This document shows, piece by piece, positions 3,932 to 42,361 of a stretch of DNA of 64,000 nucleotides. Both the position numbers and the translations under genes were made by a program. This DNA comes from Clostridiales bacterium (GTDB lineage: Bacteria > Bacillota > Clostridia > Christensenellales > Aristaeellaceae), in contig JAAYOH010000099.1 of assembly GCA_012520375.1 (NCBI GenBank), forward strand, positions 1 to 64,000, given 5' to 3'. Under the pieces are notes generated by a model. It was given only the letters and a program-made list of their open reading frames with translations, did not search any database and was not told the origin of the DNA. Positions within the stretch are counted from its first letter, which is position 1. The number at the start of each line of letters is the position of its first letter.

Positions 3932-4819
3932 ATGAATACGGGTCCATTCAGCCGGGTTTTTCTCGCCCGCTTTTTCCTGTTCGGCGCCGCCATCATATGG
4001 GGCAGTTCCTTTTTTATGGTGAAGGGCGTCGTGGACCACCTGCCCCCCGCCACCCTGCTGGCGGTGCGCTTTTCCATCGGAACCCTGATCCTGGCGCTCA
4101 TCTTTCAAAAGAAACTCAAGGGCCTGCGCCGGAGGGATCTGGTCCAGGGCGGCATCATGGGGATGTGGCTGGCGGCGGGTTCCCTGGTACAGGGCATCGG
4201 GATCCTGGACACCACCCCGGGGAAAAACGCCTTCCTCACGGGGATCTACTGCGTCATCGTCCCTTTTTTGTTCTGGGCCTCGGGGGGCAAGCGTCCGCCC
4301 CTGCGCAGTTTTCTCGCCGCTTTCCTGTGCCTGCTGGGCATCGGGCTGGTCTCCCTTACAGAAACCCTGCGCATCGGCAAGGGGGACCTGCTCACCCTGA
4401 TCAGCGGCTTTCTGTTCGCGGTACACATCGTGTCCGTGGCCCGCAGGGGGGAGGGCATGGACCCCATCGCCCTGTGTATCCTCCAGTTCGCCTCTACCGC
4501 CCTTTTCTGCTGGATCTACGCCCTGATCGTGGAGGGCAACCCCTTTGCCTTTGACTGGAGGCCGGTGTGGAAACCCGTCCTGTACCTTGCCCTGGGCCCC
4601 ACCACCCTGGCGTTCCTCTTTCAAATGATGGGGCTGCGCCTGTCGACCCCTTCCGCCGCCTCCCTGATCCTCAGCCTGGAATCGGTGTTCGGGGTGCTGT
4701 TTTCTGCGCTCTTCTATGGCGAACGCATGACCTTCCGCCTGGTCCTGGGCTTTTCGGTCATCTTTGCCGCCGTGCTGATCAGCGAGTACCGCCCCCGGGA
4801 GCGCGAGGTCGCGTCCTGA
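3932..4819 (+). CDS. EamA/DMT-family transporter, 295 aa
   Basis: The protein has about ten hydrophobic segments arranged as two EamA repeats (roughly residues 12-140 and 150-290). The first repeat opens with the typical G-A-A-I-I-W-G-S-S-F motif. The second ends with a motif near 245-265 (SLESVFGVLFSALFYGE) characteristic of drug/metabolite exporters of the inner membrane. The start ATG has GGAGGAAGG at 3-4 nt spacing. Substrate cannot be inferred; family members export amino acids, purines or toxic metabolites. A weak promoter with TATAGT at 3888-3893 lies upstream. Confidence 0.88.
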   Translation: MNTGPFSRVFLARFFLFGAAIIWGSSFFMVKGVVDHLPPATLLAVRFSIGTLILALIFQKKLKGLRRRDLVQGGIMGMWLAAGSLVQGIGILDTTPGKNAFLTGIYCVIVPFLFWASGGKRPPLRSFLAAFLCLLGIGLVSLTETLRIGKGDLLTLISGFLFAVHIVSVARRGEGMDPIALCILQFASTALFCWIYALIVEGNPFAFDWRPVWKPVLYLALGPTTLAFLFQMMGLRLSTPSAASLILSLESVFGVLFSALFYGERMTFRLVLGFSVIFAAVLISEYRPREREVAS

Positions 4820-4889
4820 ACCATTTATTCACTTGTGTCCCGGGTCCGGGGATGATATAATGAGCCAGCGGATCAAATGGGAGGCGCAC

Positions 4890-5264
4890 ATGAAGAACAG
4901 AGGACGTAGGGCGCTCCTCTTCCAGGCTTTGGCCGTCATCCTGTTCACCCTTCTTTCGGTACTGGCTGTGGGCCTTGGGGGCATTTGGTACGATGTGGGC
5001 ATGTGGGGGCTCGTCCCCCTGGCAGGGGCGGTGTGCGCCTGGCGGGGGGTGCGGCGCGGGGTTTCGGCGTATCTGGCCTGGATCCTTCCCCCCTGCTGTC
5101 AAACCGCCTTTCACTGGATCCTGCTGGGCTATCCCCCCAGTTCCCCGGGCATGCCCATGGTATGCGCCCTGTTGGCCCTGGTGGCCTCGGCTGCCGCCCA
5201 GGTCCTGAACGAACGAGGGAACAAGCCTCCACAAGAAAAACGCGACAGGATCGGAGGACGATAA
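4890..5264 (+). CDS. Small integral membrane protein, 124 aa
   Basis: The start at ATG 4890 is chosen because GGGAGG lies 5 nt upstream. About four hydrophobic stretches are seen (residues ~9-30, 34-50, 58-80, 85-105), with a basic, hydrophilic C-terminus. No family recognised. It ends 1 nt before the FGGY kinase start, and the kinase Shine-Dalgarno sequence lies within its last codons, so the two are probably co-transcribed. Confidence 0.6.
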   Translation: MKNRGRRALLFQALAVILFTLLSVLAVGLGGIWYDVGMWGLVPLAGAVCAWRGVRRGVSAYLAWILPPCCQTAFHWILLGYPPSSPGMPMVCALLALVASAAAQVLNERGNKPPQEKRDRIGGR

Positions 5265-5265
5265 C

Positions 5266-6783
5266 ATGGGCAAAAACTACATCATGACCTGCGATGCCGG
5301 GACCACGGGCTGCAAATGCTCCGTGTTCGATGCTGCGGGCAAGGCGATGTGCGCCGTCAAGTTCAATTATCCCACGGACTATCCCAAGCCGAACTGGGCC
5401 GAGCAGGACCCCTCCATGGTCCTGAAAGCCATCCTCGGCGGAATCAAGGAACTACTCACCCAGGTCTCCCCCGCCGACATCGCCTGTGTGGGGCTGTCCG
5501 GCACAATGAACGGCTGCATCCCGGTGGACGCCGGGGGCCATGCCTTGCACCCGAACATCATCCATTCCGATTCCCGCGCCTGGCAGGAAGCCAGGGACAT
5601 CGAAAAGATCATCAGCCCCGGGGACTTTTTCCGCCTGACAGGCAACCGGCTGGACCACCACTTCACCCTGCCCAAGATCCTGTGGATGCGAAACCACCGG
5701 CCCGGTGTGTACAAGCGCGCCCGTTGGTGGCTGAACACCAAGGACTACATCTACGCCCACCTCACCGGTCAGGTGGGGGTCACCGATTATTCCGACGCCT
5801 CCCTCACCATCGCCCTGGACATCGTCAATCGCTGCTGGGCGGAGGATTTGCTCAAGGAACTGGGCATCCCGGTGGGCCGCATGCCTTCCATCCACCCCGG
5901 CAGCGCGGTGCTGGGTGGCATTACCAAGGACATCGCCGAGAAGACCGGCCTGCTGGAGGGCACGCCGGTGGCCATCGGCGGCGGCGACGGGGCCTGCGCC
6001 GGCCGGGGGGCCGGGCTGTCCACTCCGGGCACCGCCTACTGCTGCATCGGCTCCAGCGCCTGGGTCAGCCTGCTCACCCGGCAGCCGGTGCTGGATGAGG
6101 AGATGCGCATCTCCAACTACCTCGACATGGGGGGCGACGTCAACCATACCCTGGGCGTCATCCAGACCGGGGCAGCCGCCTACGACTGGGCCGTGTCCAA
6201 CCTGCTCACCGGGGCGGAAGCCGCCACCGGCGCCGATCACAACCGCATCGAAAACATGGCCCGGCAAATCGAGCCCGGGTCCGAGGGCGTACTGTTCCTG
6301 CCCACCCTGATGGGCGAGCGTACCCCCTATTGGGATCCCAACACCCGGGGCTGTCTCATGGGCTTCACCCTGTACCACGACCAGCGCCACGTGGCCCGGG
6401 CGGTGTACGAAGGGGTGGGGTTTGCCCTGAACAACACCATCGAGATCATGCACGACTGCGGCCAGCCCATCCGCTCCATGATGCTGATCGGGGGCGGCGC
6501 CCGCTCCGGGCTGTGGCCCGATATGCTGGCCAACATCTTCGGCGTCCCCACCCAGGTACACATGACCCCCGGAGAAGCCACCTCCATGGGCGCCGCCATG
6601 GCCGCCGGCGTGGGCGTGGGCATCTTCGACAGCTTCGAATCGGCGGCGGCCATCGTACAGGCCCGGTCCAGCCACCCGGGCAATCCGGCCATTGCCGAAA
6701 AGTACCGGGAGGTTTTTGGCTTGTACCGCAGGATGTACGGCTGCCTGAAGCCCCTCTTCGACGGCATTGCGGAGCAGGGGTAA
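5266..6783 (+). CDS. FGGY-family carbohydrate kinase, xylulokinase-like, 505 aa
   Basis: The N-terminus has the FGGY phosphate-1 motif DAGTTGCKCSVFD at residues ~10-22. The catalytic aspartate region is N-I-I-H-S-D-S-R-A (~98-106), and the second ATP-binding half includes GGGARSGLWPDMLANIFG (~410-427) and GEATSMGAAMAAG (~439-451). Length is normal for xylulokinase, L-fuculokinase or ribulokinase. Such cytosolic enzymes phosphorylate a sugar or sugar alcohol with ATP to feed central metabolism. The exact sugar cannot be read from sequence; fuculose is possible given the fucosidase locus at 24-35 kb, but that link is inference. The ATG has GGAGGACGATAAC directly upstream. Confidence 0.88.
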   Translation: MGKNYIMTCDAGTTGCKCSVFDAAGKAMCAVKFNYPTDYPKPNWAEQDPSMVLKAILGGIKELLTQVSPADIACVGLSGTMNGCIPVDAGGHALHPNIIHSDSRAWQEARDIEKIISPGDFFRLTGNRLDHHFTLPKILWMRNHRPGVYKRARWWLNTKDYIYAHLTGQVGVTDYSDASLTIALDIVNRCWAEDLLKELGIPVGRMPSIHPGSAVLGGITKDIAEKTGLLEGTPVAIGGGDGACAGRGAGLSTPGTAYCCIGSSAWVSLLTRQPVLDEEMRISNYLDMGGDVNHTLGVIQTGAAAYDWAVSNLLTGAEAATGADHNRIENMARQIEPGSEGVLFLPTLMGERTPYWDPNTRGCLMGFTLYHDQRHVARAVYEGVGFALNNTIEIMHDCGQPIRSMMLIGGGARSGLWPDMLANIFGVPTQVHMTPGEATSMGAAMAAGVGVGIFDSFESAAAIVQARSSHPGNPAIAEKYREVFGLYRRMYGCLKPLFDGIAEQG

Positions 6784-6787
6784 AGCC

Positions 6788-7585
6788 ATGGACCACAGGG
6801 ATGATCCCGCCGTCTACCTGGAGCGGGTCGGCAGCATATACGTCAGCCTGTTCCGCATGGCCCACGCCATCACCGGCAACCGGGAGATCGCGGCCTATGT
6901 GTTCCGCAGCGCCATCGTGGAAGCCTACCTGCGCCGCAAGGAATGGCAGGGCCGCATGAGCTTCCAGGACGGACTGGAGCGCACGGTGCGGGGCGTAGCC
7001 CTGGCAGAGCTCAAGCGCATCCGGGCAGCCGGGCGCTTCGAGGTGGACTGGATCCTGCCCGAACCCGTGGTACAGGGCGCCGCCGCCACCCGGCAGGCGC
7101 TGCTGGAGCTTCTGGAAAAGGAATCCGAAGTCATACAGCGCATCGCCATGCTGTACTATGCCTGCCAGCTTAGCCATCGGCAGATCGCCCAGGTGATGCA
7201 GCTGCACACCGCCGAGGTCTCCGGCAAACTGCACCGTTTGAGTTCCCGTCTGCTCCGGGCCCTGAAACTGGGAGGCCAAAGGGGCATGCGCAGCCTGGAG
7301 GATCATTTGGAAGCCCTGTTGCTCTCCGCCCTCAACCGGGAGGGGGAGGAGGTCCCCGAGCCCGGCGTGGTGTTCCGCTCCTTTGAGCGGGATGTCATGG
7401 GGGCGACCCGGCCCCGGACCAGCCTGAGCCGGGTGATCGTGACCCTTTTGAAACTGCTGGGCGCCCTGGTGTTGGCCGCCCTGATCTGGCTTCTGGCCGT
7501 CTTGTTGGAACCCTCCCCCGAGACCGCTGCACCCCATTCCAGCCCCGACCCAAAAGTCCAAAGTATAACGGAGGTGCCCCCATGA
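6788..7585 (+). CDS. Sigma-factor-like protein with C-terminal membrane anchor, 265 aa
   Basis: The first ~150 residues are helical and laid out like an ECF sigma factor: a region-2-like part (VYLERVGSIYVSLFRMAHAI) and a region-4-like helix-turn-helix at ~122-150 (YYACQLSHRQIAQVMQLHTA). Unlike normal sigma factors it continues with a linker and one strong transmembrane segment at ~222-245, followed by a short P/S-rich tail. Orientation would leave the DNA-binding-like part inside the cell. The ATG at 6788 lies just after the kinase stop; its stop overlaps the next start (ATGA), so it is translationally coupled to the secreted caspase-fold protein. It may be a membrane-tethered regulator; sequence alone does not show that it binds polymerase. 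Confidence 0.6.
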   Translation: MDHRDDPAVYLERVGSIYVSLFRMAHAITGNREIAAYVFRSAIVEAYLRRKEWQGRMSFQDGLERTVRGVALAELKRIRAAGRFEVDWILPEPVVQGAAATRQALLELLEKESEVIQRIAMLYYACQLSHRQIAQVMQLHTAEVSGKLHRLSSRLLRALKLGGQRGMRSLEDHLEALLLSALNREGEEVPEPGVVFRSFERDVMGATRPRTSLSRVIVTLLKLLGALVLAALIWLLAVLLEPSPETAAPHSSPDPKVQSITEVPP

Positions 7586-9021
7586 AAAAGCGCGTCCTGG
7601 TCCTCGTGCTCCTGGCCCTTCTCCTTGGCTGCTTATGCGCTCAGGCAGACAGCCTGACCCTGCTGCCCAGGCGGCTCACCTTGTACATAGGTTCGGACGG
7701 CGCGGGGGAAGGAAAACCCTTGGCGGCCGCCGTGAGTCCCCTGCGGCCCCTGCGTTTTATCAGTGACAGGCAAAGCGTCGCTTCGGTGGACGACACCGGG
7801 TTTGTCACGCCAGTCAGGACAGGCCGCGCTCGTATCTATTGCACAGCCCGTGGCCGGCCGGTGCTGAAGCGGGTGTGTTGGGTCACCGTAAGGCCCCAGC
7901 CCCCCACCGATCTCAGCCTGGACCGCCCAGCCCTCACCCTGGCCCCCGGGGTAAGCGAGAAGCTGACCCCGCAGATCCTGCCGGAAAACGCGGTAAACAA
8001 AAGGGTCACCTGGAGGAGCAGTTCCCCGAGGGTCGCTTCGGTGAACAAATACGGCGTGGTGACCGGGCGCAGGCGAGGCACTGCCTATATCACCTGCCGC
8101 ACCAGGGCGGGGAGGCTGAGGGCAACCTGTCAGGTCACGGTGGACTATTCCGACAGCGACGTCCATTACCTCATCATCGGGCAGAAGGACTATGGCCCCG
8201 GCATTGTCGACCTGGAATCCTCGGAAAGCGATGCCAGGCGGTTCAAGGCGGCGATGGAAGCCATGCAATTCAGTCCCGACAGGAGCAAGACGGGAGACCT
8301 GTGTTTCGATCTGACGGGACAGGAAATCCGGCAGGCCCTGGGCCAACTGTCCGAAAAGGGCATGGACGCCAATGACCTGACCTATTTCTATTATTCAGGC
8401 CACGGGAAGGACAGCGATAAGAAGTGCGAGCGGGGAGCGCTGGTGGGGGTCGACGGCGTGATCGTCCCAGTGGACGAGGTGCGGTCCTATCTGGACCAGG
8501 TGCCCGGCACCGTGATCGTGGTGCTGGACTGCTGTTTGGCGGGCCAGTACATTCAGGCCAAGGGCGCCGGCACTCCCCTGACAGGCGAACGCCAGCAGAA
8601 GCTCCTTTCGGATATGGTGGACAACTTTGTCAGCCCCTCCCCCGCCCTGGCGGCCAAGGGCACGGTGTCCCTCGTCTCGGACAACCCTCAAAGGAACAAA
8701 TACCGCATCATGGTCTCCTGCAAACCCCTGCAGGAATCCTGGGCTGCCATGTCGAGCCCTGAAACCGAGGAATCCGCCTACAGCTTCTTCACCTACTATT
8801 TGGGGGAAGGGCTTGGCGTTGTGGGGAATGGCAACACCTTCTCCCATCTGGGCACCCTCCCCGCGGACAGAAACCGGGACGGGTACGTAACCCTGCAGGA
8901 GGTCCACAGGTACACCGCCCCCAAGGTGATGCGGGCCGTCCGGGAACTGGATTGTCCCCCTCAAACTGTCATGGTGTGGCCCAGCAGGAGTTCCAAAACC
9001 GTCTTCGCGAAAGTCGGCTGA
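7582..9021 (+). CDS. Secreted Ig-like (BIG2) / caspase-fold (C14) / EF-hand protein, 479 aa
   Basis: A signal peptide (residues 1-22, with a possible lipobox LLGC at 14-17) is followed by two bacterial Ig-like BIG2 repeats (~23-104 and ~107-188; each has the S-V-D/N-x-x-G-x-V-T block). A caspase-like peptidase domain follows at ~194-470. The histidine motif YFYYSGHG puts the catalytic His at 274 and VVLDCCLAGQ the Cys at 318. Near the end, residues 429-440 form a canonical 12-residue EF-hand loop (D-R-N-R-D-G-Y-V-T-L-Q-E), suggesting calcium activation. Clan CD peptidases cleave after specific residues, often Arg/Lys. Its start overlaps the stop of the sigma-like gene. Substrate and role are unknown. 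Confidence 0.85.
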   Translation: MKKRVLVLVLLALLLGCLCAQADSLTLLPRRLTLYIGSDGAGEGKPLAAAVSPLRPLRFISDRQSVASVDDTGFVTPVRTGRARIYCTARGRPVLKRVCWVTVRPQPPTDLSLDRPALTLAPGVSEKLTPQILPENAVNKRVTWRSSSPRVASVNKYGVVTGRRRGTAYITCRTRAGRLRATCQVTVDYSDSDVHYLIIGQKDYGPGIVDLESSESDARRFKAAMEAMQFSPDRSKTGDLCFDLTGQEIRQALGQLSEKGMDANDLTYFYYSGHGKDSDKKCERGALVGVDGVIVPVDEVRSYLDQVPGTVIVVLDCCLAGQYIQAKGAGTPLTGERQQKLLSDMVDNFVSPSPALAAKGTVSLVSDNPQRNKYRIMVSCKPLQESWAAMSSPETEESAYSFFTYYLGEGLGVVGNGNTFSHLGTLPADRNRDGYVTLQEVHRYTAPKVMRAVRELDCPPQTVMVWPSRSSKTVFAKVG

Positions 9022-9028
9022 CGCATAC

Positions 9029-9068
9029 AGCGCCCCCGCAGCCAAAGAAGCTGTGGGGGCGCTTTTTT
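9029..9068 (+). terminator. Strong terminator after the caspase-fold gene
   Basis: A GC-rich hairpin (AGCGCCCCCGCAGC paired with GCTGTGGGGGCGCT, one G-T pair) is followed by TTTTTT. It closes the operon. Confidence 0.9.
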
Positions 9069-9084
9069 GTGTCTTCTTTCTTCT

Positions 9085-9426
9085 TTAGTCCAGCACGATG
9101 CAGGCCAGGATCACCAGATCCTCTGTCCCGTCGTTCTTCACGGAATGTCCCTGGCCGCCAAAGGTAGTCATGGAATCCCCTGCCTCCACCCGCAGGGTCT
9201 CTCCGTTGTCGTCCACCAGCCCGCTGCCGCTGACAAAGTAGAACAGCTCGGTCTCCCGTTCGTGGACGTGGTACCCGATGGAGGCGCCCGGGATCAGGGT
9301 CAGCAGGGAAAACAGCCGTGCATTGGCGGGCAGTTTTCCCGCCAGCGCCCGCAGCTGTACGGTCAGGTCGCCGCCCCGCATCTTTTCTTTGGTGGTCAGA
9401 ACTTGTTCATGCATCCTTGTGATCAT
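9085..9426 (-). CDS. Cupin-domain protein, 113 aa
   Basis: A single-domain cupin. Motif 1 is G-x(n)-H-V-H-E-R-E-T-E-L-F-Y-F-V-x-G (residues ~51-70) and motif 2 the later G-D-S-M-T-T-F-G-G-Q-G-H-S stretch. The two histidines and glutamate of motif 1 and the final histidine would bind one divalent metal. Small cupins of this type act as sugar isomerases, dioxygenases or ligand-binding regulators; I cannot choose. The ATG at 9426 has GGGGAGG at 8 nt. It faces the caspase operon tail-to-tail and lies 20 nt beyond the end of the next minus-strand gene's coding region. Confidence 0.85.
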   Translation of the reverse strand: MITRMHEQVLTTKEKMRGGDLTVQLRALAGKLPANARLFSLLTLIPGASIGYHVHERETELFYFVSGSGLVDDNGETLRVEAGDSMTTFGGQGHSVKNDGTEDLVILACIVLD

Positions 9427-9446
9427 GGGTATATCCTCCCCTTCCT

Positions 9447-10184
9447 TTACCCTACGCCGACGACGGCGTTGTTCTTTACCTGGAACTGGTGCCGGTTCCC
9501 CAGGGTAAAATAGCCTTGAACCGCCTGCCGTTTGCCTTTTTCCCGGTTTTCCACCAGGATGCCCAGCCGGTAGGGCCCTTCTTCGTAGGTGTTTACCTTG
9601 AAAGCCGCCTGAAAATCTGCCCGTTCCAGGTTCTGCCCCTTCGCCGGGTCGTGGGTGACCCCCGAGGCGCCGGGTTTGATGTCCGCCACATAAAAGCGGT
9701 GCACTGCCCCCGCCTTGGCGGACACCACCAGGTATACCGTGCTTTCCATGGCGTCGCAGCCCTCCAAAAAGGCCCAGCCCCGCACCAGGATGGATCCGTT
9801 CTTATCCCCTGCCGATACGTTCAGCTCGGTGATCTCCGCCTCCCCACGATGGTCCGCCTTTTCCGGCATCAGCATCCTTGTGTCTTGGGTGGAATATATC
9901 TGCAGGGGCAGGGGCGTTGCCTGGGGAGTGGGGGCCGGCGTGGGCAGGGGCGTAGGGGTAGGCAAAGGAGTGGGGGTGGGGGTGGCTTCCGGCAAGAGGT
10001 AACCGTCTTCGGCAAACTTGGCCCGAAGGCTCGCATCTTCGGGCAAAAGGTCCGTATAGTCAAAGCGGGTCAACATGCCGATCCCCGCGTAGCATCCCAC
10101 CACGAAGATCGCCAGGGCGATGAAGAAAAAGGCGATGGCTGCGCCCCTCCTGCGAAAAGTGGGCGTGCGCTTTTTCCGCTTCAT
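9447..10184 (-). CDS. Membrane-anchored extracytoplasmic protein with Pro/Thr linker, 245 aa
   Basis: The start at ATG 10184 is preferred because GGGAGG lies 7 nt before it; an in-frame ATG 15 nt earlier overlaps that Shine-Dalgarno sequence. A basic N-terminus is followed by a transmembrane helix (~15-38), a short region, then a T-P/L-P-rich linker (~68-92) that would span the cell wall, and a ~150-residue beta-rich outer domain. The outer domain resembles no family I can name. The same TP-linker style appears in the L,D-transpeptidase at 61135-62298. Confidence 0.65.
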   Translation of the reverse strand: MKRKKRTPTFRRRGAAIAFFFIALAIFVVGCYAGIGMLTRFDYTDLLPEDASLRAKFAEDGYLLPEATPTPTPLPTPTPLPTPAPTPQATPLPLQIYSTQDTRMLMPEKADHRGEAEITELNVSAGDKNGSILVRGWAFLEGCDAMESTVYLVVSAKAGAVHRFYVADIKPGASGVTHDPAKGQNLERADFQAAFKVNTYEEGPYRLGILVENREKGKRQAVQGYFTLGNRHQFQVKNNAVVGVG

Positions 10185-10243
10185 CACGGCACCTCCCATA
10201 CTGCCCTTTCAGGGCCCCATTATATCCCCGTGCCCGGTGAAAG

Positions 10244-12112
10244 TCAAGCGGGGGGAAAGGGGCTGTATACGCTGCATTCCAGGCCCGGCACGTCCACGAC
10301 AAAGCTCCGGGGCATCAGGTCGTCCTTCCGCAGCCTTGCCGTCGCGGTCTTTTCGTCCCGGTTGATGAGGCATACCCTCAGCCCATCCGGCGCCGGGTCC
10401 CCCAGGGCGTCCTTTCCGTTCCGGATGCGCCGCACAACCGCCAGCACCCCGTCCCCGGAGGCGTACAACCGGGCCTCCCCGGTCATGAGCACCGGATCCT
10501 TCAGGCGCTCCCGGCAGCTGTCCCGGATCTGCTCAAGCAGGTCCATGTCCCTGTCGCCCCAGGGATAGGTGCCCCGGCAAAAGGGATCTGCCATGCCGGT
10601 CTGCCCCGCCTCGTCCCCGTAGTAGATGCAGGGCATCCCGGGCAGGGCGCACAGAAAGCGCCACAGGATGCTGTAGCGGGCGCGGCCCAGCTCGTACTTT
10701 TCCCGGGACAGTTTGCGGGCCCGCCGCTGCTCCCGGGGAGGTTGCAGGCCCTCTTCCCCCGACAGCACGTCGATGATCCGGGGCTTGTCGTGGCTGCCCA
10801 GCACGTTCATCAGGGAATAGAAAAAAGCAGGGGCGTAGTTCTCCTGCAAATGCCGGAACCGCCGCACCACCGCCGGAGCGTCGATCTTCCCCAGCATGAA
10901 GTCGATGAGCATCTCCCGCAGGGGATAATTCATCACGCTGTCCAGGGTATCCCCCAGGCAATAGCAGCGGGCTTCTCCGTAGGACACCTTGTTGCTCGCG
11001 TCTTCCCATACCTCCCCCAAAAGGCAGGCCTGGGGATCTTCCCCCTTGACCCGCGCCCGCATCTGCCGGATGAAGGACATGGGCAGCTCATCCGCCACGT
11101 CCAGCCGCCAGCCGGAGGTGCCGCAGCGGATGTAATGGGCGCACACCGCGTCCTTCCCCCCAATGATGAACTCCCGGAAGCTCTCGTCCTCCTTGTTGAC
11201 AGTGGGCAGGGTGGGAAATCCCCACCAGCATTCATACTCGTCGGGATGCCTGGTAAAAGTGTACCAGCCGGCATAAGGGGACTCGGTGCTTTGATACGCC
11301 CCGACCTCGTCATAGCGGCCGGCAATATTGAAGTACCGGCTGTCCGCCCCGGTATGGCTGAACACCCCGTCCAGGATCACCCGGATCCCCAGGGCCCGGG
11401 CCTTTTGGCAAAGCGTTTTCAAGTCCTTCAGGGTACCGAAGGACGGGTCCACCTGCATATAATCCCCGGTGTCGTACTTGTGGTTGGAGCGGGCCCGGAA
11501 GATGGGGTTCAGGTACAGGGCGGTGACGCCAAGGTCCTTCAGGTAGGGAAGTTTCAGGCATATGCCCTTCAGGTCGCCCCCGAAAAAATCGTTGGCCTCG
11601 TTGTCCCCTCCTCCCAGGCGCAGGGCGGGGGACTCGTTCCAGTCCTCATGCATCCAACCCGCCTCCGGGACGGGCTTGTCTTTCGGATCGGTGCCCGGGT
11701 AGAAGCGGTCCGGCATGATCTGGTACAGGATGCCCCTTCGCATCCAGTCCGGGGTGGCAAAGGCGGGATCGTACACGGTAAGCTGGTAGCCCGGGGGTTC
11801 CCCCTTGTATTGCCGCCCCACGCCCCCCAGCCTGTCGGAGGCGTTTCCGTACCACAGTCTTCCCTTGGGAGTGTCTGCGATGAAGTGATACCACAGCACG
11901 CCGGGTATGTCAGGCAGCGTGATGGAAGCCCGCCACAGCCCATCTTCACCGGGGGCCAGCTCGATCAACTGCTCCGCGTCCTGCCACCACAGCCGGAGCC
12001 AGGCCTTTTCGACCCCTTTCCCGCAGCGCAGGGCCAGTGTAACAGGCGTATCGCACGCCCCCGCCCCGGGGGGTGTGCGATACGCGGCGGATCTTGAATC
12101 GTGGTACAACAT
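10244..12112 (-). CDS. Glycoside hydrolase family 13 (neopullulanase/maltogenic-amylase-like), 622 aa
   Basis: An N-terminal beta-sandwich (~1-110, CBM34/early-set type) precedes the GH13 (beta/alpha)8 barrel. The conserved regions are visible: DGVFSHTG (region I), GWRLDVADEL with the nucleophile Asp (region II), LLGEVWED with the acid/base Glu (region III) and NVLGSHDKPR with the transition-state Asp (region IV). No signal peptide, so it is cytosolic and would cleave alpha-1,4 (perhaps alpha-1,6) bonds in imported maltodextrin or glycogen. It starts 3 nt after the phosphorylase stop codon on the same strand, so the two form an operon for alpha-glucan breakdown. Confidence 0.9.
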   Translation of the reverse strand: MLYHDSRSAAYRTPPGAGACDTPVTLALRCGKGVEKAWLRLWWQDAEQLIELAPGEDGLWRASITLPDIPGVLWYHFIADTPKGRLWYGNASDRLGGVGRQYKGEPPGYQLTVYDPAFATPDWMRRGILYQIMPDRFYPGTDPKDKPVPEAGWMHEDWNESPALRLGGGDNEANDFFGGDLKGICLKLPYLKDLGVTALYLNPIFRARSNHKYDTGDYMQVDPSFGTLKDLKTLCQKARALGIRVILDGVFSHTGADSRYFNIAGRYDEVGAYQSTESPYAGWYTFTRHPDEYECWWGFPTLPTVNKEDESFREFIIGGKDAVCAHYIRCGTSGWRLDVADELPMSFIRQMRARVKGEDPQACLLGEVWEDASNKVSYGEARCYCLGDTLDSVMNYPLREMLIDFMLGKIDAPAVVRRFRHLQENYAPAFFYSLMNVLGSHDKPRIIDVLSGEEGLQPPREQRRARKLSREKYELGRARYSILWRFLCALPGMPCIYYGDEAGQTGMADPFCRGTYPWGDRDMDLLEQIRDSCRERLKDPVLMTGEARLYASGDGVLAVVRRIRNGKDALGDPAPDGLRVCLINRDEKTATARLRKDDLMPRSFVVDVPGLECSVYSPFPPA

Positions 12113-12115
12113 CTC

Positions 12116-14578
12116 CTACAGCCTCAGGGGTGAGAGATGCCAGACCCGTTCGTTGTACTCTGAAATGGTCCTGTCGGAGGAGAATATGCCGGAGGAGGCG
12201 GTGTTGCGTACCGCCATGGCGATCCACTTTTCCCGGTCGCCATAATCCCGGGCAACCCGGACATGGGTGCGCATGTACTCGGGCAGATCCTTCAGCACGA
12301 AGTAGGGATCCGCCATGCCGCCGTTGTCCCCGAACAGCAGGGCGTGGTACAGTTCCCGGAACTCGTAAGGGTTGTCGGGGGACAGGGTGCAGTCGATCAG
12401 CTGCTCCATCACCCGACGGATGAAGGGGTGCTCCCCGTACATGTCGTGGGAACGGTAGGTGGCGTATCCCGCCTCCACCTCTTCAGCGGTCAAGCCGAAG
12501 ATGTAGATGTTGTCCAGGCCCACGCTCTCGCTGATCTCCACATTGGCGCCGTCCAGGGTGCCGATGGTCACCGCGCCGTTCATCATGAACTTCATATTGC
12601 CGGTACCGCTGGCCTCCTTGCCCGCAGTGGAGATCTGCTCGGACACATCGGTGGCAGGTATGAGGATCTCCGCTGCAGAGACACAGTAGTTTTCCAGGAA
12701 GACCACCTTGATCATCCGGCTGGCCCGGGGATGCTTGGCCACCAGATCGGCGATGGCATTGATGAGGCGGATGATCAGCTTGGCCCGGTAGAAGCCGGGG
12801 GCCGCCTTGGCGCCGAAGATGAAGGTTCGGGGGGGCAGCTCCAGGCGCTCATTCTGGTCAATGCGGTTGTACAACGCCAGGATATGCAGCGCGTTCATCA
12901 GCTGCCGCTTGTACTCGTGGAGGCGCTTTGCCTGGACATCGAAAATGCTGTCGGGATCCAGGATGACGCCCTGGCTCTTTTTTAAAAATGCGGCCAGGCG
13001 CAGTTTGTTTCCGTGTTTCACCTGGGCAAAACGCTCCCGGAAGGCGGGATCATCCGCGAAGGGCAAAAGCTCCGCCATGCGGGCAGGGTTCTTCTTCCAG
13101 CCCGTTCCGATGGCTTCGTCCAGCAGGCGGGTCAGCTCGGGATTGGCCTGGATCAACCAGCGCCTGTGGGTGATGCCGTTGGTGATGCCCAGGAATTTGC
13201 TCGGCTCCACCAAGTAGAAATCCCGGAAGGTGGTGCGCTTCAGGATGTCCGCGTGGATCTGGCTGACGCCGTTCACCGTGTGACACATGGAGACGCACAG
13301 GTTGGCCATGTGCACGCTGCCGTATCCGATGATGGCCATGCGGCCGATGCGCTCCCACTGGCCGGTATACACCCTCCACAGCCGGTCGCACAGGCGCCGG
13401 TTCAGCTCCTCCAGGATCATGTAGATCCGGGGCAATAGCCGCTTCACCAGGTCCACGGGCCAGCGCTCCATGGCTTCCTGCAGCACGGTGTGGTTGGTAT
13501 AGGCAAAACTGCGGCGGGTGATGTCCTCGGCCTCTTCCCAACCCAGCCCGTTCTCGTCCATGAGGACGCGCATCAGTTCGGGGATGGCCATGCCCGGGTG
13601 GGTATCGTTCACATGGAGGGCCACCTTCAGCGGGAAGAGCTCCCAGTTGGTTCCATGCACCTTTTTGAAGTCATCCACCGCATACTGCACGGTGGCGGAA
13701 GAGAAGAAATACTGCTGCTTCAGCCGCAGCTCCCTGCCCTCCTCATGGTTGTCTTCGGGATACAGCACCTTGGAGATCACCTCAGCCAGGGTCTTCTCCT
13801 CCATGGCCTTGGCGTACTGGCCCTGGTTGAACCGCTTCATGTCAAGCTGCGTGGGGCTCTTGGCGGACCAGGTGCGCAGCATGTTCACCATGGTGGAGTC
13901 GTAGCCCAGGCTGGGCATTTCGTAGGGCACAGCCAGCACCGTGGAGTAGTCCACCAGCCGGAATTTCTTGCTGCCCCCCTCCTCGTATTCCTCCACCCGG
14001 CCCCCGAAACGCACTTCCTGGGTCTGGTCGGCCCGGCAGATCTCCCACAGGTTGCCGTTGACCAGCCAGTTGTCCGGCAGCTCCACCTGGTAGCCGTCCA
14101 CGATCTTTTGGCGGAACAGGCCGTACTCATAGCGGATGGTGCAGCCCATGGCGGGCAGCTTCAAGGCAGACAGCGAATCCAGGAAGCAGGCCGCCAGCCG
14201 TCCCAGGCCCCCGTTGCCCAGGCCGGGTTCGGGCTCCTGCTCAAAGATCATGGACTTGTCGATGCCCAATTCACGGAAGGCATCCAGGTAGTTCTGCTCG
14301 TTCACCAGGTTCACAATGTTGTTGTGGAGCGCCCTGCCCACCAAAAACTCGGCAGACAGATAGTACAGCTTTTTGTTGCCGCTCTCCTTCCGTACGCCCC
14401 GGGATTGGGCCCGCCGCTGCATGATCTCGTCCCGTACCGTGGAGGCAATGACCTGGTACAATTGATCGCAGGACGCCTCTTCTATCCCACAACCGAAATG
14501 CCGATCCAGCTTGCTCCGGATGTTCTCCTTGATCTTATCCTTGGAAAAGTTCTGACGGACTTCTCTCTTATCTTTCAT
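12116..14578 (-). CDS. glgP: Glycogen/maltodextrin phosphorylase, 820 aa
   Basis: Typical full-length alpha-glucan phosphorylase (GT35). It has the early active-site block EPEPGLGNGGLGRLAACFLD (~residues 110-129) and the pyridoxal-phosphate lysine in EASGTGNMKFMMNGA near residue 660. It releases glucose-1-phosphate from the non-reducing ends of glycogen or maltodextrin, in the cytosol. ATG 14578 is chosen because GGGAGG is at 7 nt; an in-frame start 42 nt upstream would add residues outside the family. It is followed directly by a GH13 enzyme that can remove the limit dextrin. Confidence 0.96.
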   Translation of the reverse strand: MKDKREVRQNFSKDKIKENIRSKLDRHFGCGIEEASCDQLYQVIASTVRDEIMQRRAQSRGVRKESGNKKLYYLSAEFLVGRALHNNIVNLVNEQNYLDAFRELGIDKSMIFEQEPEPGLGNGGLGRLAACFLDSLSALKLPAMGCTIRYEYGLFRQKIVDGYQVELPDNWLVNGNLWEICRADQTQEVRFGGRVEEYEEGGSKKFRLVDYSTVLAVPYEMPSLGYDSTMVNMLRTWSAKSPTQLDMKRFNQGQYAKAMEEKTLAEVISKVLYPEDNHEEGRELRLKQQYFFSSATVQYAVDDFKKVHGTNWELFPLKVALHVNDTHPGMAIPELMRVLMDENGLGWEEAEDITRRSFAYTNHTVLQEAMERWPVDLVKRLLPRIYMILEELNRRLCDRLWRVYTGQWERIGRMAIIGYGSVHMANLCVSMCHTVNGVSQIHADILKRTTFRDFYLVEPSKFLGITNGITHRRWLIQANPELTRLLDEAIGTGWKKNPARMAELLPFADDPAFRERFAQVKHGNKLRLAAFLKKSQGVILDPDSIFDVQAKRLHEYKRQLMNALHILALYNRIDQNERLELPPRTFIFGAKAAPGFYRAKLIIRLINAIADLVAKHPRASRMIKVVFLENYCVSAAEILIPATDVSEQISTAGKEASGTGNMKFMMNGAVTIGTLDGANVEISESVGLDNIYIFGLTAEEVEAGYATYRSHDMYGEHPFIRRVMEQLIDCTLSPDNPYEFRELYHALLFGDNGGMADPYFVLKDLPEYMRTHVRVARDYGDREKWIAMAVRNTASSGIFSSDRTISEYNERVWHLSPLRL

Positions 14579-37165: not shown

Positions 37166-40100
37166 ATGCTTTCCAAATTTTCCGTCAAAAAGCCCTACAC
37201 CGTGGTGGTGGGCATTTTGTTGGCCTTGGCTCTGGGGATCATCTCCTTCGTCAGCATGAGCACCGACCTGCTGCCGAGCATGAACATGCCCTACGTCGTG
37301 GTATATACCACCTACATCGGCGCCACCCCCGAGCGGGTGGAGTCCGAGGTCACCCGACCCATGGAGGCCGCCTTTTCTACCCTGTCCGACATCAAATCCA
37401 TCAATTCCACTTCATCGGATAACGTCTCCGTCATCACCATGGAGTTTTCCGGTGGCGCGAACATGGACGGCGCTCTCATCGAGATCTCCTCCAAGATCGA
37501 CCTGCTTCGGGGCACATGGAACGATTCCGTGGACTCTCCGGTGGTCATGAAACTGAATCCCGACATGCTGCCCATCAGCGTGGCCTCGGTGTCCATGGAA
37601 GATTCCGACCTGCACCAGCTGTCCGACTTCGTCAACGATACCCTGGTGCCCCGGCTGGAGGGCATCGACGGCGTGGCCTCGGTGAATGTTTCCGGCGCCG
37701 TGGAGGAGTCGGTGCGCATCACCATCGACGAGGACCGGATCGATATCGTCAACAGTCTGATCCTCAAAGACGTGGACGCCGAGCTGGCAAAGGTGGAGCA
37801 GGAGCTGAAGGATGCCCAGCAACAGTTGTCCGACGGCAAGCGCACTTTGGCTTCCAAGCGGCGCAGCACCCTCAAACAGATCGACGACATGCTGAAACAG
37901 ATGAACGAGGACACCCTGACAGGGGCCGTAAATGAGCTGGTCGCACAACGCGATCAGCTGCAACAGCAACTGAACCAGGTAGAGGCGGGGCTGGATGCCC
38001 TGGATTCCCTGGCCTCCCTCACCCCCGAACAGCAGGCCCAGCTGGAAGCCCTGCACACCCAGCTCGCCCAGTTGCAGCAGCAGAAGGCCGCACTGGAGGC
38101 CCAGCGGGACGCCCTGGATGCCGCGCAGTTCGACCCCGACGCCCAGGCCGCCCTGGAGGATGCCCGCACCCGCCGCGCCGCATTGGTGGAGCAGCGGGAC
38201 GGCTATGCCGCTTACATCGACGAACAGCAGATGCGGGACCCCGCCGCCCTCAACCAGCGTATCCAGGCGCTGTCCGCAGTCATCACTGCCCAAGAGCAAC
38301 AGCTTGGCCAGGTGAACGGGCAGATCGCGAACAAAAACCAGGCCCTCGCCCAGCTGAACCAGGACATCGCGGAATTGGAACAGCAGATCGCGGAGCTTGA
38401 AGCCACCCCCTCCCCGGATCCAACCCCCGGCTCTTCCCAGGATCCGGGGACCGGCTCTACGCCCGATCCCTCGCAGGAACCGGGGACCGATACCACACCC
38501 GACCCTTCCCAGGAACCGGGGGCCGGCTCCTCTCCCGATCCTTCTCAGGATCCGGGGGCAGACGCCACGCCCGATCCTTCTCAGGATCCGGGTACGGGAA
38601 CCACCCCCGACCCTTCTCAACCCCCCCAAGGCAATAGTACACTGAGCCCTTCCCAGGATCCGGGGGCAGACGCCACGCCCGATCCCTCTCAGGAACCGGG
38701 GACCGATACTGCCCCCAGCCCTTCCCAGACCCCCGAAGGCAACGACGCCTTGAACGCTTCACAGGAACCGGGAGCCGATACCACGCCCGATCCTTCTCAG
38801 GAGCCGCAAGGCGATATCACACCCGATCCCTCGCAGGAGCCGGGGGCCGACGCCACGCCCGATCCCTCGCAGGAACCAGAGGCCGACGCCACCCCGGATC
38901 CCTCTCAGGCCCCCGACGCAGGGACCACCCCGGATCCCTCGCAGGCCCCGGAAACAGGTGCCACGCCCGGCCCCTCTCAGGCCCCGGAAGCCGATCCCAC
39001 CGCTCGGCCTTCCTCTGCCCCCGAACAGGCCCCCGCCGCCCACCACACTACCTTCCCCCTCTTCGAACAGGCGGCCATGGCAGCGTCCCCCACCATCGAG
39101 TCCCTCCGGCTGGAGCTGGAGAATCTCATCAGCCAGCGGACCGCTCTGCAGCAAGAGCTGGATAACCTGAACGCCCATAAAGGGGATCTGGAAAGCTCTC
39201 TGGAACAAAACCGGGCGACCCTCGCGAGCTATCAGGCTACCCTGGATCAGTTGATCGCCTCCGGCAGCGGCGAGGACACGAGCCTCCGGGTGCAGGAATC
39301 CCAGCGGCAGATCGACCGCCTGAACGGGGAGATCGCCCAGGTGGACCAGGAAATCGCCAGCCTGGAGGCAGGCCTTCTCACCGATGCGGAGCGGGATGCC
39401 CAAAAAGCCCAGATCCAGCAGCAGATCGACCAGGTGGATGCCGCCATTTCAGCCATCACCAGTTCCGAGGCCTACCAGATGCTGGCCCTGGCCGCGGACG
39501 AAGACGCCTACAACCGGCAATACGCCGAACTCACCCAAGCCAGGGCCCAACTGTCCCAGGGCATTGCCCAGATGGACGTTCTGATCGATAAGCTTCAAAG
39601 CGGCATCATCCCTGCGGGCTTCGTGGAGGGTGTGGACGAGGATACCCCAATGGCGGAAGCCGAGGAAAAGCTGCGGGCGGGCCGCTCCGCTGCCCTGGCC
39701 GCCTTCGCGGACGCGGCTGCCAAGCTGCAGGAAGCAGAGGAGGAACTGGCAAAAGGCCGGAGCGAATTCTATGAAAAGCGGGACGAGGCCCTGGAGGACG
39801 CAGGCATCGACGGCATCATCACCATGGAAATGGTGGCGGGCCTGGTGGCTGCACAGAACTTCTCCATGCCCGCGGGCTACGTCGGCCAGGGCGACGAAGA
39901 ATACATGGTCCGGGTGGGCGAGGAATTCGCCTCCCTGGACGAATTGCGCCGCATGCGCCTTTTCTCCCTGGATCTGGACAGCATCGACATCGTGTCCCTG
40001 AGCGACGTGGCTCAGGTAGACATCCTGGACAACGCGGACGAGGTCTTCACCAAGGTGAACGGCGCGGACGGGCTCATGCTGTCCTTCCAGAGGCAGAGCA

Positions 40101-42361
40101 TCCACTCCACCGCCGACGTAGCAGAGCGCATCACCGACACCTTCCGGCAGCTGGAAACAGAGTTTCCTGGTCTGGACTTCGTGGAGCTCATGAACCAGGG
40201 CGATTACATCGACATGATGGTAGAGTCGGTGATGAGCAACATGATCTACGGCGCGGTGCTGGCAGTGCTGGTGCTCTTTGTCTTCCTGCTGGACATCCGC
40301 CCCACCCTGATCGTGGCCCTGTCCATCCCCATCAGCGTGCTCATGACCTTTGTCTGCATGTACTTCACCGGCATCACCCTGAACGTGCTGTCCCTGGCTG
40401 GATTGGCCCTGGGCATCGGCATGCTGGTGGACAACTCCATCGTGGCCATCGAAAACATTTACCGGCTCCGCAACGAGGAGCACATGCCCGTATTGCAGGC
40501 CTGCGTGGAGGGCGTCCGGCAGATCTCCGGGGCGCTTTTCTCCTCCACCCTCACCACGATCTGCGTCTTCCTGCCCGTGATCTTTGTAGAGGGCATGACC
40601 AGGGACCTATTCGGCGACATCGGCCTGACCATCGCCTATTCCCTGCTGTCCAGCCTTTTGGTGGCCATGACCGTGGTGCCCACCATGGCGGCGGGTGTCC
40701 TGCGCAAGTCCAAGCCCAGCAAGGAGCGCTTTGCCAACGCCCTGCGCAGGGGGTATACCGTCCTGCTCCGGGGCGCCCTGAAGGCCCGCTGGTTGGTACT
40801 GCTGCTGGCTGTCGCCCTCCTGGGCTACAGCGTCCACGAGGTGCTCCAGATGAGCATGTCCTTCTTGCCCGACGTCTCCTCGCCCCAGATGACCGCCATC
40901 CTCACCTTCGAAGAGGATAGCCCCGAAAGCGCCAAGAAGAAGCAGGCCATGGACCTCATGGATGCCATGCTCCAGGTGCCCTCGGTGGATTCCATCGGCA
41001 TGACCACCGGAGCCATGATCGGGGTCAGCGCTTCCGAAAGCAGCCTTGGGGACACCCTCAACTACTACATCGTTGTAGACAAAGACGCGGAGCGCAGCAA
41101 CGTCGAGATCGGCCGGGACCTGCTCCAGTGCGGCAAGGATGCCGGACTGGACCTGGATGTGCAAACCAACAACATGGACATCACCATGCTCAGCGGTTCC
41201 GGCATCGCCATCGACATCACCGGCAGCGACCTGAACACCCTGCGCAGCATCGCCCTCGAAATCGCCGAACTTGCCTCCACAGTGGAGGGCGCGGGCAAGA
41301 TCTCCGACGGCCTGGAGAAAACCGTCCCCGAGATGTCCGTGGTGGTGGACAAGGACGCCGCCAACGCCGAGAAACTCACCGTAGCCCAAGTCTTCCAGTT
41401 TCTGGCCGCCAAGCTGGCGGATCCCCAGGAGATCACAGACATCACCATCACCGGCAAAGAGTATCCGGTGCGGGTCGTGGAGGGAAAAAACCTGACCCTG
41501 ACCCAGGCAGACCTGGAGCATCTGGAGATCGAGGTGGAGAGCGAGGATTCGGCCAAGATGGTGCGCGTCGGGGACATCGCCGATGTGAACGAAAGCCTGA
41601 GCATGGCCAGCATTTCCCGCCGCGCCCAGCAGCGCAGCGTCACGGTCACCGTGTTCGCCGCCGAGGGCTATGCCCTGTCCAAGGTCAGCGATGCACTCAG
41701 TGAAAAGCTGGAGGGTTACACGCCTCCGGAAGGCTATACGGTATCCCTGTCCGGCGAAAACGAAATGACTCTGGACATTATAGGCGACCTGATGAAAGTG
41801 GTCCTCGTCGCCCTGCTGTTCATCTTCCTGATCATGGTGGCCCAGTTCCAGTCCTTCAAGTCCCCCTTCATCGTCATGTTCACCATTCCCCTGGCTTTTA
41901 CCGGCGGCCTGCTGAGCCTGTTGGCCGGCGGGATGGACCTGTCCGTGGTGGCCATCGTGGGCTTCCTGCTGTTGTTCGGCGTGGTGGTAAACAACGGCAT
42001 CGTGTTCGTGGAAACCGTCAACCAGCTGCGCATCGGGGGCATGGAAAAGCGGGAAGCCATCCTGGAAACCGGCCGCATACGCTTACGCCCCATCCTGATG
42101 ACCGCCCTCACCACCATCCTGGGCATGGCTCTGACGGCCCTTGGCAGGGGCATGGGTGCCGAGTTGATGCAGCCCATGGCCGTCGTTTCCGCGGGCGGGT
42201 TGATCTACGCCACCTTCATGACCCTGTTCATCGTGCCCATCCTGTACGATATAATCATGGGCAAAAAATTGAAGGCCCGGGAAATCGAGATGATCCGGGA
42301 ATCCGCCGGGCTGCGCAGCGACGAAGAAGTCCTGGCCGCCCCCGACAAGTTTGTCGCCTGA
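37166..42361 (+). CDS. RND-family exporter (HAE1/SwrC-like) with giant coiled-coil insertion, 1731 aa
   Basis: The ends are a normal AcrB/SwrC-like permease: TM1 at ~12-32, porter segments, TM2-6 with the proton-relay helix GLALGIGMLVDNSIVAIENI (~1082-1101, D-N in place of the AcrB D-D), and a second half with VVALLFIFLIMVAQFQSFK and final helices. The unusual part is an insertion from ~205 to ~882 in the first porter (PN2) region, between E-S-V-R-I-T-I-D-E-D-R and M-E-M-V-A-G-L-V-A-A-Q. It consists of a coiled coil (~205-410), seventeen 12-residue P/S/Q repeats (420-623) and a second coiled coil (~645-880). The usual length is 1000-1050 aa. AAGGAGG is at 6 nt. A TATAAT at 37092-37097 may belong to its promoter. 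No membrane-fusion partner is nearby. Confidence 0.9.
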   Translation: MLSKFSVKKPYTVVVGILLALALGIISFVSMSTDLLPSMNMPYVVVYTTYIGATPERVESEVTRPMEAAFSTLSDIKSINSTSSDNVSVITMEFSGGANMDGALIEISSKIDLLRGTWNDSVDSPVVMKLNPDMLPISVASVSMEDSDLHQLSDFVNDTLVPRLEGIDGVASVNVSGAVEESVRITIDEDRIDIVNSLILKDVDAELAKVEQELKDAQQQLSDGKRTLASKRRSTLKQIDDMLKQMNEDTLTGAVNELVAQRDQLQQQLNQVEAGLDALDSLASLTPEQQAQLEALHTQLAQLQQQKAALEAQRDALDAAQFDPDAQAALEDARTRRAALVEQRDGYAAYIDEQQMRDPAALNQRIQALSAVITAQEQQLGQVNGQIANKNQALAQLNQDIAELEQQIAELEATPSPDPTPGSSQDPGTGSTPDPSQEPGTDTTPDPSQEPGAGSSPDPSQDPGADATPDPSQDPGTGTTPDPSQPPQGNSTLSPSQDPGADATPDPSQEPGTDTAPSPSQTPEGNDALNASQEPGADTTPDPSQEPQGDITPDPSQEPGADATPDPSQEPEADATPDPSQAPDAGTTPDPSQAPETGATPGPSQAPEADPTARPSSAPEQAPAAHHTTFPLFEQAAMAASPTIESLRLELENLISQRTALQQELDNLNAHKGDLESSLEQNRATLASYQATLDQLIASGSGEDTSLRVQESQRQIDRLNGEIAQVDQEIASLEAGLLTDAERDAQKAQIQQQIDQVDAAISAITSSEAYQMLALAADEDAYNRQYAELTQARAQLSQGIAQMDVLIDKLQSGIIPAGFVEGVDEDTPMAEAEEKLRAGRSAALAAFADAAAKLQEAEEELAKGRSEFYEKRDEALEDAGIDGIITMEMVAGLVAAQNFSMPAGYVGQGDEEYMVRVGEEFASLDELRRMRLFSLDLDSIDIVSLSDVAQVDILDNADEVFTKVNGADGLMLSFQRQSIHSTADVAERITDTFRQLETEFPGLDFVELMNQGDYIDMMVESVMSNMIYGAVLAVLVLFVFLLDIRPTLIVALSIPISVLMTFVCMYFTGITLNVLSLAGLALGIGMLVDNSIVAIENIYRLRNEEHMPVLQACVEGVRQISGALFSSTLTTICVFLPVIFVEGMTRDLFGDIGLTIAYSLLSSLLVAMTVVPTMAAGVLRKSKPSKERFANALRRGYTVLLRGALKARWLVLLLAVALLGYSVHEVLQMSMSFLPDVSSPQMTAILTFEEDSPESAKKKQAMDLMDAMLQVPSVDSIGMTTGAMIGVSASESSLGDTLNYYIVVDKDAERSNVEIGRDLLQCGKDAGLDLDVQTNNMDITMLSGSGIAIDITGSDLNTLRSIALEIAELASTVEGAGKISDGLEKTVPEMSVVVDKDAANAEKLTVAQVFQFLAAKLADPQEITDITITGKEYPVRVVEGKNLTLTQADLEHLEIEVESEDSAKMVRVGDIADVNESLSMASISRRAQQRSVTVTVFAAEGYALSKVSDALSEKLEGYTPPEGYTVSLSGENEMTLDIIGDLMKVVLVALLFIFLIMVAQFQSFKSPFIVMFTIPLAFTGGLLSLLAGGMDLSVVAIVGFLLLFGVVVNNGIVFVETVNQLRIGGMEKREAILETGRIRLRPILMTALTTILGMALTALGRGMGAELMQPMAVVSAGGLIYATFMTLFIVPILYDIIMGKKLKAREIEMIRESAGLRSDEEVLAAPDKFVA
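38423..39034 (+). repeat. Seventeen 36-bp coding repeats (12-aa units)
   Basis: In-frame tandem repeat inside the RND gene. The consensus unit is TPDPSQEPGADA; units vary in positions 7 and 9-12 (e.g. DPGTGT, EPEADA, APETGA), and some are diverged (ALNASQEPGADT). The product would be an extended, proline-rich, acidic linker joining two coiled coils. Confidence 0.95.

Follow-up and report, generated by a model that had tools for sequence, protein, structure and literature searches.

A predicted membrane-anchored sigma-like protein and its conserved small membrane neighbour in uncultured Clostridia

INTRODUCTION

What does a protein laid out like an extracytoplasmic function (ECF) sigma factor do at the membrane, and does a caspase gene that overlaps its own gene belong to the same system? 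The question is raised by a run of genes in a Clostridiales bacterium of the GTDB family Aristaeellaceae (GenBank assembly GCA_012520375.1, contig JAAYOH010000099.1), within a stretch of 64,000 nucleotides, positions 1 to 64,000 of the forward strand, that is called the window here. This window comes from contig 67 of a draft genome of 2.29 Mb in 106 contigs. In it, the gene for a 265-aa sigma-like protein (SIG, protein P0001; 6788-7585 on the + strand, with an ATG at 6788 and the stop TGA at 7583-7585) shares the four bases ATGA with the start of the gene for a 479-aa caspase-like protein (CASP, P0002; 7582-9021 on the + strand, with an ATG at 7582). A preliminary description of this DNA had noted the overlap, whose coordinates we confirm, and had suggested that the two genes form a coupled system.

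Here we describe SIG as one of a set of 58 loci in the same GTDB family whose steady neighbour is a small membrane protein, MEM, and in which the caspase gene looks like a local, genus-level addition outside the conserved machine. Our favoured reading, to which we give a probability of about 0.45, is that SIG is a membrane-bound pseudo-sigma that works with MEM.

RESULTS

SIG has a predicted ECF-sigma-like fold and a membrane anchor

An AlphaFold2 model of SIG, built from an alignment of P0001 and nine relatives, reached a predicted local distance difference test score (pLDDT) of 84.7 and a predicted template modelling score of 0.72. It comprises a sigma2 fold at residues 2-82, a sigma4 fold at 100-162, two helices at 163-206, and a long hydrophobic, predicted transmembrane helix at 213-239, followed by a short outer tail. 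Residues 2-82 superpose on sigma2 of AlgU (6in7_B) at 2.0 Å over 81 residues, and residues 100-162 on sigma4 of SigD (3vfz_B) at 2.0 Å over 63 residues. The best Foldseek rows were ECF sigma/anti-sigma complexes, at E values of 1.2e-3 upward with none at or under 0.001; LuxR-type DNA-binding domains were also present among the matches, as were, lower down, the sigma-like domains of PhyR. VIA Z values of 8 to 10.5, middling for a helical protein by the tool's own note, were headed mostly by sigma factors.

At the sequence level, SIG passed the cut-off of neither curated sigma model: it scored 17.8 bits against Pfam Sigma70_r4_2 (cut-off 25.7), and its best NCBIfam match, TIGR02983 (2.9e-9, 37 bits), lay below a cut-off of 141.55. 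Ordinary ECF-type proteins from this GTDB family were recovered by the SIG profile with values of 1e-12 to 1e-17. Since the top fold rows are ECF sigma/anti-sigma complexes and the sequence profiles agree with them, we regard the sigma-like fold as confirmed; by its predicted structure, SIG is an ECF-sigma-like fold with a membrane anchor. The preliminary description, which had proposed an ECF layout ending in a transmembrane anchor, is thus borne out by structure prediction, with both sigma2 and sigma4 recovered. In the profile searches that it had proposed, Sigma70_r4_2 for SIG stayed below its cut-off, and Peptidase_C14 for CASP rose above it.

Relatives of SIG were searched in 100 and then in 300 genomes of the GTDB family, and 58 loci were taken, with their surroundings, and read with marker proteins and a caspase profile. 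The SIG set consists of matches that extend over most of the profile and across the transmembrane part, together with one fragment (G392). Matches ending before the transmembrane part (ordinary ECF-type proteins, G406 and G092) were left out, as were a match that reaches position 223 in a short frame with an internal stop (G068) and a fragment at a contig edge (G062). Where relatives of the locus carry a name (9 loci), it is that of Candidatus Pullichristensenella or of another uncultured member of the Clostridia. At E ≤ 1e-15 no match to SIG was found outside the family in a sample of 297 genomes of the order.

The membrane anchor is a constant feature of the set: a C-terminal hydrophobic segment is present in 58/58 SIG proteins versus 0/26 ordinary ECF-type proteins. 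Charge places the N-terminal part inside in 53/58. The outer tails are short (median 20 residues, n = 58), and only that of G042 exceeds 100 residues, with 172. P0001 has a single cysteine and an outer tail of 25 residues, and neither a zinc finger nor an extracytoplasmic regulatory domain was found in it. Three SIG proteins (L068, L070 and L072) have otherwise low-complexity outer tails that end with a common motif resembling PFSAVE or DFSAIE, possibly a binding tag.

Signature residues of ECF sigma factors are lost in SIG

For comparison we used 26 ordinary ECF-type proteins of the same GTDB family, 6 from a first search and 20 from a later one; of the first seven comparison loci, L027 was left out, having been read in the wrong frame. 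The two sets differ sharply at columns 37, 62, 69 and 147, which we take to serve core binding, promoter melting and -35 reading in ECF sigma factors. Asp at column 37 (region 2.2) occurs in 26/26 ECF-type proteins versus 3/57 SIG, Trp or Tyr at column 62 (region 2.3-2.4) in 26/26 versus 0/57, Asn at column 69 in 23/26 versus 0/58, and the Arg of the -35 recognition helix at column 147 in 25/26 versus 1/58. P0001 itself has Y37, G62, G69 and K147. Glu replaces the recognition-helix Arg in 17 SIG, and the mean charge of this helix is +3.4 in SIG versus +5.3 in the ECF-type proteins. SIG has constant residues of its own, R118 and L122 (58/58 each); L122 is common in the ECF-type proteins too, R118 is present in 1/26 of them, and a Cys stands at position 126 in 45/58 SIG.

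These residues bear on two alternatives in which SIG still acts on DNA. ToxR and CadC are membrane-anchored DNA-binding regulators, and SIG could be a protein of that type, binding through its sigma4-like helix-turn-helix with MEM as the sensor. SIG does keep the sigma4 fold and a recognition helix of net positive charge, and the LuxR-type domains among the fold matches point the same way; the near-complete loss of the recognition-helix Arg, its replacement by Glu in many proteins, and a helix charge below that of the ECF-type proteins make such a regulator unlikely. Quite unlikely, too, is an active ECF sigma factor whose own C-terminal helix ties it to the membrane until regulated intramembrane proteolysis releases it, as in IutY and in the mechanism proposed for ECF48, ECF52 and ECF53. 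The order of sigma2, sigma4 and transmembrane helix is the same, and C-terminal membrane extensions of sigma factors have been described, in IutY with proteolytic activation. However, the positions kept in 23 to 26 of the 26 ECF-type proteins are lost in nearly all SIG, and P0001 departs from them at all four columns.

IutY (ECF243), ECF48, ECF52 and ECF53 have a C-terminal transmembrane extension and, like SIG, a sigma2-sigma4 head on the inside with the transmembrane helix after sigma4; ECF48, ECF52 and ECF53 carry a zinc-finger extension, and regulation across the membrane is demonstrated for IutY and otherwise proposed (PMC8999054). All are described there as sigma factors and treated as working ones, whereas SIG is without the signature residues compared here. 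Unlike the zinc-finger groups, P0001 has its lone cysteine and short tail, and SIG has a conserved small membrane neighbour.

MEM is the steady neighbour of SIG

MEM is encoded upstream of SIG at about 4860-5264 on the + strand and is a small, probably four-helix membrane protein. Its start is uncertain (TTG at 4833, ATG at 4860 or ATG at 4890) and its end lies at 5264. No Pfam or NCBIfam family matched MEM over its cut-off; the profile A4, of which MEM is itself a row, finds the protein of the window at 8.1e-39.

MEM lies within the retrieved stretch of 55/58 SIG loci. It stands directly before SIG on the same strand in 21 of the 58; in 31, the window included, a gene for an FGGY carbohydrate kinase stands between the two in the order MEM-kinase-SIG on the same strand; and in three, SIG is divergent from MEM and the kinase. 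About 1 kb more separates MEM from the kinase in G042. As to the three loci without MEM in the stretch, those of G429 and G555 start right at the end of a contig or close to it, and in G078 MEM is encoded on a different contig. With the profile, MEM was found on other contigs in G078 and G555, which brings it to 57/58 SIG genomes; only G429, a genome 67% complete, is without it.

The converse search gave a similar picture. At E ≤ 1e-5, MEM matches occur in 79/300 family genomes; 62 of them fall under 1e-14, and 57 of these 62 are in the 58 SIG genomes. Among the other five strong matches, two (G073 and G410) lie beside a SIG gene of divergent orientation, and in a third (G062) one contig carries MEM, a kinase and, past these at its end, a fragment of SIG. 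The fourth (G426) reaches a contig edge, and in the fifth (G036) nothing was found beside MEM in the last 0.7 kb of the contig. Outside the family, no MEM match at E ≤ 1e-4 was found in a sample of 294 genomes of the order.

In the window the intervening gene (5266-6783, + strand) encodes a xylulokinase-like protein with Pfam FGGY_N and FGGY_C, which scores 366.5 bits against the NCBIfam model TIGR01312, below the cut-off of 380.25. Because MEM and SIG overlap by 4 bp in eight loci, their direct coupling possibly came first, with the kinase inserted later. SIG and MEM might instead serve the kinase pathway as accessory subunits that tether or tune a sugar kinase at the membrane, with no transcription circuit. 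This would fit the kinase's place between them in 31 loci and beside a divergent MEM in three more, but is very unlikely in view of the 21 loci where MEM directly precedes SIG with no kinase between and of the eight overlaps.

Sigma-less partners of more distant MEM proteins

Eleven of the 17 weaker MEM matches were looked at. In ten of them, from five other genera (L212-L217, L219, L220, L223 and L225), the gene after MEM encodes, in the place of SIG, a transmembrane protein that lacks the sigma part, measures 164-200 aa and carries a single hydrophobic helix at its N-terminus plus an outer domain; the exception is G043, which has a distant MEM without such a partner. A profile of the ten sigma-less proteins matches SIG around the transmembrane helix, with a best E value of 8.3e-7 when searched among SIG proteins alone. 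As a control, the same profile was run against 4404 reading frames of the 58 loci and gave 17 matches at E ≤ 0.1 (best 4.6e-5). All 17 were SIG and none was any other protein, so that, judged by these profiles, the match is more than one of hydrophobicity.

In a tree of MEM, itself a short protein, the ten sigma-less cases form one clade (support 0.886), and G042, whose SIG combines a sigma head, the helix and a long outer part, branches next to it. These data provide a lead, rather than a result, towards a single module with an optional, swappable sigma head. The outer domain gave only chance-level rows in Pfam (best E 0.096 over eight proteins of the sigma-less group and G042) and in NCBIfam (best 0.1, three proteins tested), and an initial guess that it is DUF4367-like was not borne out by these family searches. 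What looks like an ABC (ATP-binding cassette) transporter gene follows the sigma-less partner in four of the ten genomes.

CASP is a known kind of caspase in a genus-level position

CASP scores 67.6 bits against Peptidase_C14 (PF00656; cut-off 21.4) and 60 bits, in two stretches, against Big_2 (PF02368; cut-off 22.8). His274, Cys318, the loop DRNRDGYVTLQE at 429-440 and the two Ig-like domains are exactly as first described. The EF-hand fared less evenly: Pfam EF-hand models stay below their cut-offs (11.9 versus 25 and 11.6 versus 25.4 bits), whereas the first Asp and the last Glu of the loop stand at the same place in all 30 aligned sequences that reach it, CASP included. Positions three and five of the loop are Asn or Asp in 29 of the 30 each, and the Gly is present in only 11; a loose form of the loop pattern occurs somewhere in the frame of 8/22 caspases from other families of the phylum. 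A calcium role for the loop is plausible.

The His-Cys dyad is kept in 30/31 aligned sequences, CASP included. The exception is the second Pfam caspase of the window genome (L095; G000:C70, frame 9250-12192, - strand), likely a pseudo-caspase, in which Arg replaces both residues. This second protein has several Big_2-like stretches, and its gene adjoins one that we take, by eye, to encode glycyl-tRNA synthetase.

CASP fits well into Peptidase C14 and carries Big_2 domains besides, a kind of protein already known, and its hydrophobic N-terminus suggests that it is probably secreted. Like the prokaryotic caspase homologs (orthocaspases), it has a C14 domain with the HC dyad. The archaeal orthocaspases are listed with EF-hand motifs and N-terminal Big_7 Ig-like domains (PMC6426788); CASP differs in having Big_2 domains and in that its loop is integral to the C-terminal part of the caspase. 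PF00656 is present in at least 43/100 family genomes, an undercount, as the caspase beside SIG in G049 was missed. A plasmid search with the caspase domain gave two weak matches, and no relatives of CASP were found in viral_contigs. Defence models gave a weak caspase match for CASP only, and nothing for SIG, MEM or the kinase. A single-sequence AlphaFold2 model of CASP reached a pLDDT of 36.9, too low to be of use.

In the window the four genes form a tight run, MEM-kinase-SIG-CASP, with SIG third; 1 base separates MEM from the kinase and 4 bases the kinase from SIG. A strong intrinsic-terminator-like hairpin (9029-9063, + strand; a 14-pair stem with a T tail) follows CASP, and no promoter-like match was found in 4700-9200, where 0.8 would be expected by chance. 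This spacing, the hairpin and the lack of a promoter-like match indicate that the four genes are probably one transcript in the window genome.

The SIG-CASP pair is kept in the only other species of the genus that was sampled (G049), at 60% identity for SIG and 47% for CASP, and the pairing is thus more than chance. There the two genes do not overlap: the gap is about 68 bp when counted from the ATG of the export-like sequence, or 17 bp if translation begins at an in-frame ATG further upstream; inspection by eye shows a TATAAT box. Beyond the genus the pairing was not found. A caspase lies downstream of SIG in 2/58 loci, those of these two species, with at least 1 kb of downstream sequence available in 53/58 and at least 500 bp in 56/58; moreover, 37 further stretches of the family that carry a caspase, at 28 distinct places, yielded no SIG-like or ECF gene. 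These counts come close to the lack of adjacency in other genomes that the preliminary description had itself named as refuting its proposal. On this synteny we reject the caspase and SIG as a conserved unit, and of the coupling put forward in the preliminary description there remains a pair kept in both sampled species of one genus and probably co-transcribed in the window.

We therefore consider it highly improbable that SIG and the caspase make up one signalling or surface-protease system, with calcium-gated proteolysis feeding a membrane sigma-like protein. The ATGA overlap, the common hairpin, the lack of a promoter-like match between the genes in the window and the persistence of the pair in a second species would favour it, but 56/58 SIG loci have no caspase, the sister species has no overlap, and the stretches around the 28 other caspase places contain no sigma-like gene. 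Outside the genus, the closest caspase, that of G040, lies after the gene that we take, by eye, to be guaB (IMP dehydrogenase). In 18/58 loci (L079, L084, L086 and 15 others) the start of guaB is no more than 500 bp downstream of SIG; this suggests that CASP drifted into the SIG neighbourhood rather than co-evolving with SIG.

DISCUSSION

As a pseudo-sigma that works with MEM, SIG would have descended from an ECF sigma factor. Its two domains would still have the sigma fold and face the inside of the cell, but the residues for binding the RNA polymerase core and for reading and opening a promoter would be gone. MEM would sense a change in or across the membrane and thereby alter the exposure of the sigma-like head. 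The head would then act by protein-protein contact; in the simplest form, it would be a sigma mimic that holds or releases an anti-sigma factor or another regulator in trans, as the PhyR domain does. The FGGY kinase would be an optional passenger or a metabolic input. CASP, probably secreted, would have been added downstream within the genus, probably on the same transcript, outside the conserved machine. The MEM-SIG contact, the sensing, the mimic role and its target, and with them the function of SIG, are what we infer from the locus.

There is a precedent for such a use of the fold. The sigma-like domain of PhyR uses the sigma fold for protein binding, not for transcription, in a partner switch with NepR (PMC8999054). 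PhyR resembles the proposed role of SIG in using the fold as a mimic, and its structures are among the SIG fold matches. The two differ in that PhyR belongs to the response regulators and is found in Alphaproteobacteria, whereas SIG sits in the membrane and shows no receiver domain.

Several observations weigh against a pseudo-sigma role. The relative placing of the two domains in the SIG model is tentative: with both taken together, its root-mean-square deviation is about 6 to 9 Å from several sigma-anti-sigma complexes and more from others. Arg is frequent in SIG at 118, 150, 154 and 157, which leaves nucleic-acid binding possible, and some SIG proteins keep ECF residues (Asp at 37 in 3, Glu at 41 in 5). 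The ECF-type proteins of the comparison were those that the SIG query or profile matched less strongly, a choice that should bias them towards SIG, and they were taken irrespective of activity. The link between SIG and the sigma-less proteins consists of position and of a match mostly in the region of the hydrophobic helix. Finally, no candidate anti-sigma target of SIG was identified.

A wider form of the proposal is more tentative still: a clade of uncultured gut Clostridia would have a membrane signalling module not described before, in which MEM is paired with a sigma fold stripped of its polymerase and promoter contacts and used as a membrane-bound sigma mimic, and the sigma head would be a swappable output domain whose place is taken by a sigma-less protein in sister genera.

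Tethered sigma factors are already known (PMC8999054); what would be new is a pseudo-sigma family, its function put forward here as a proposal, with a conserved small membrane neighbour. No description of a MEM-SIG module was found in the literature by titles and abstract openings, a coverage that leaves most subscription journals outside. If the proposal is right, the SIG family would be a clear example of how a transcription factor can become a component of signalling, with its fold retained, its working residues gone and a small membrane protein as its conserved neighbour. The analysis also removes a tempting, poorly supported caspase-sigma pathway.

Elsewhere in the window, positions 37166-42361 (+ strand) encode a 1731-aa protein that by eye resembles an RND-type efflux transporter with a long inserted segment. 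The insert contains a tandem repeat array at about 38426-39001, with a 36-bp unit and repeats like PDPSQEPG, which is odd for the lineage.

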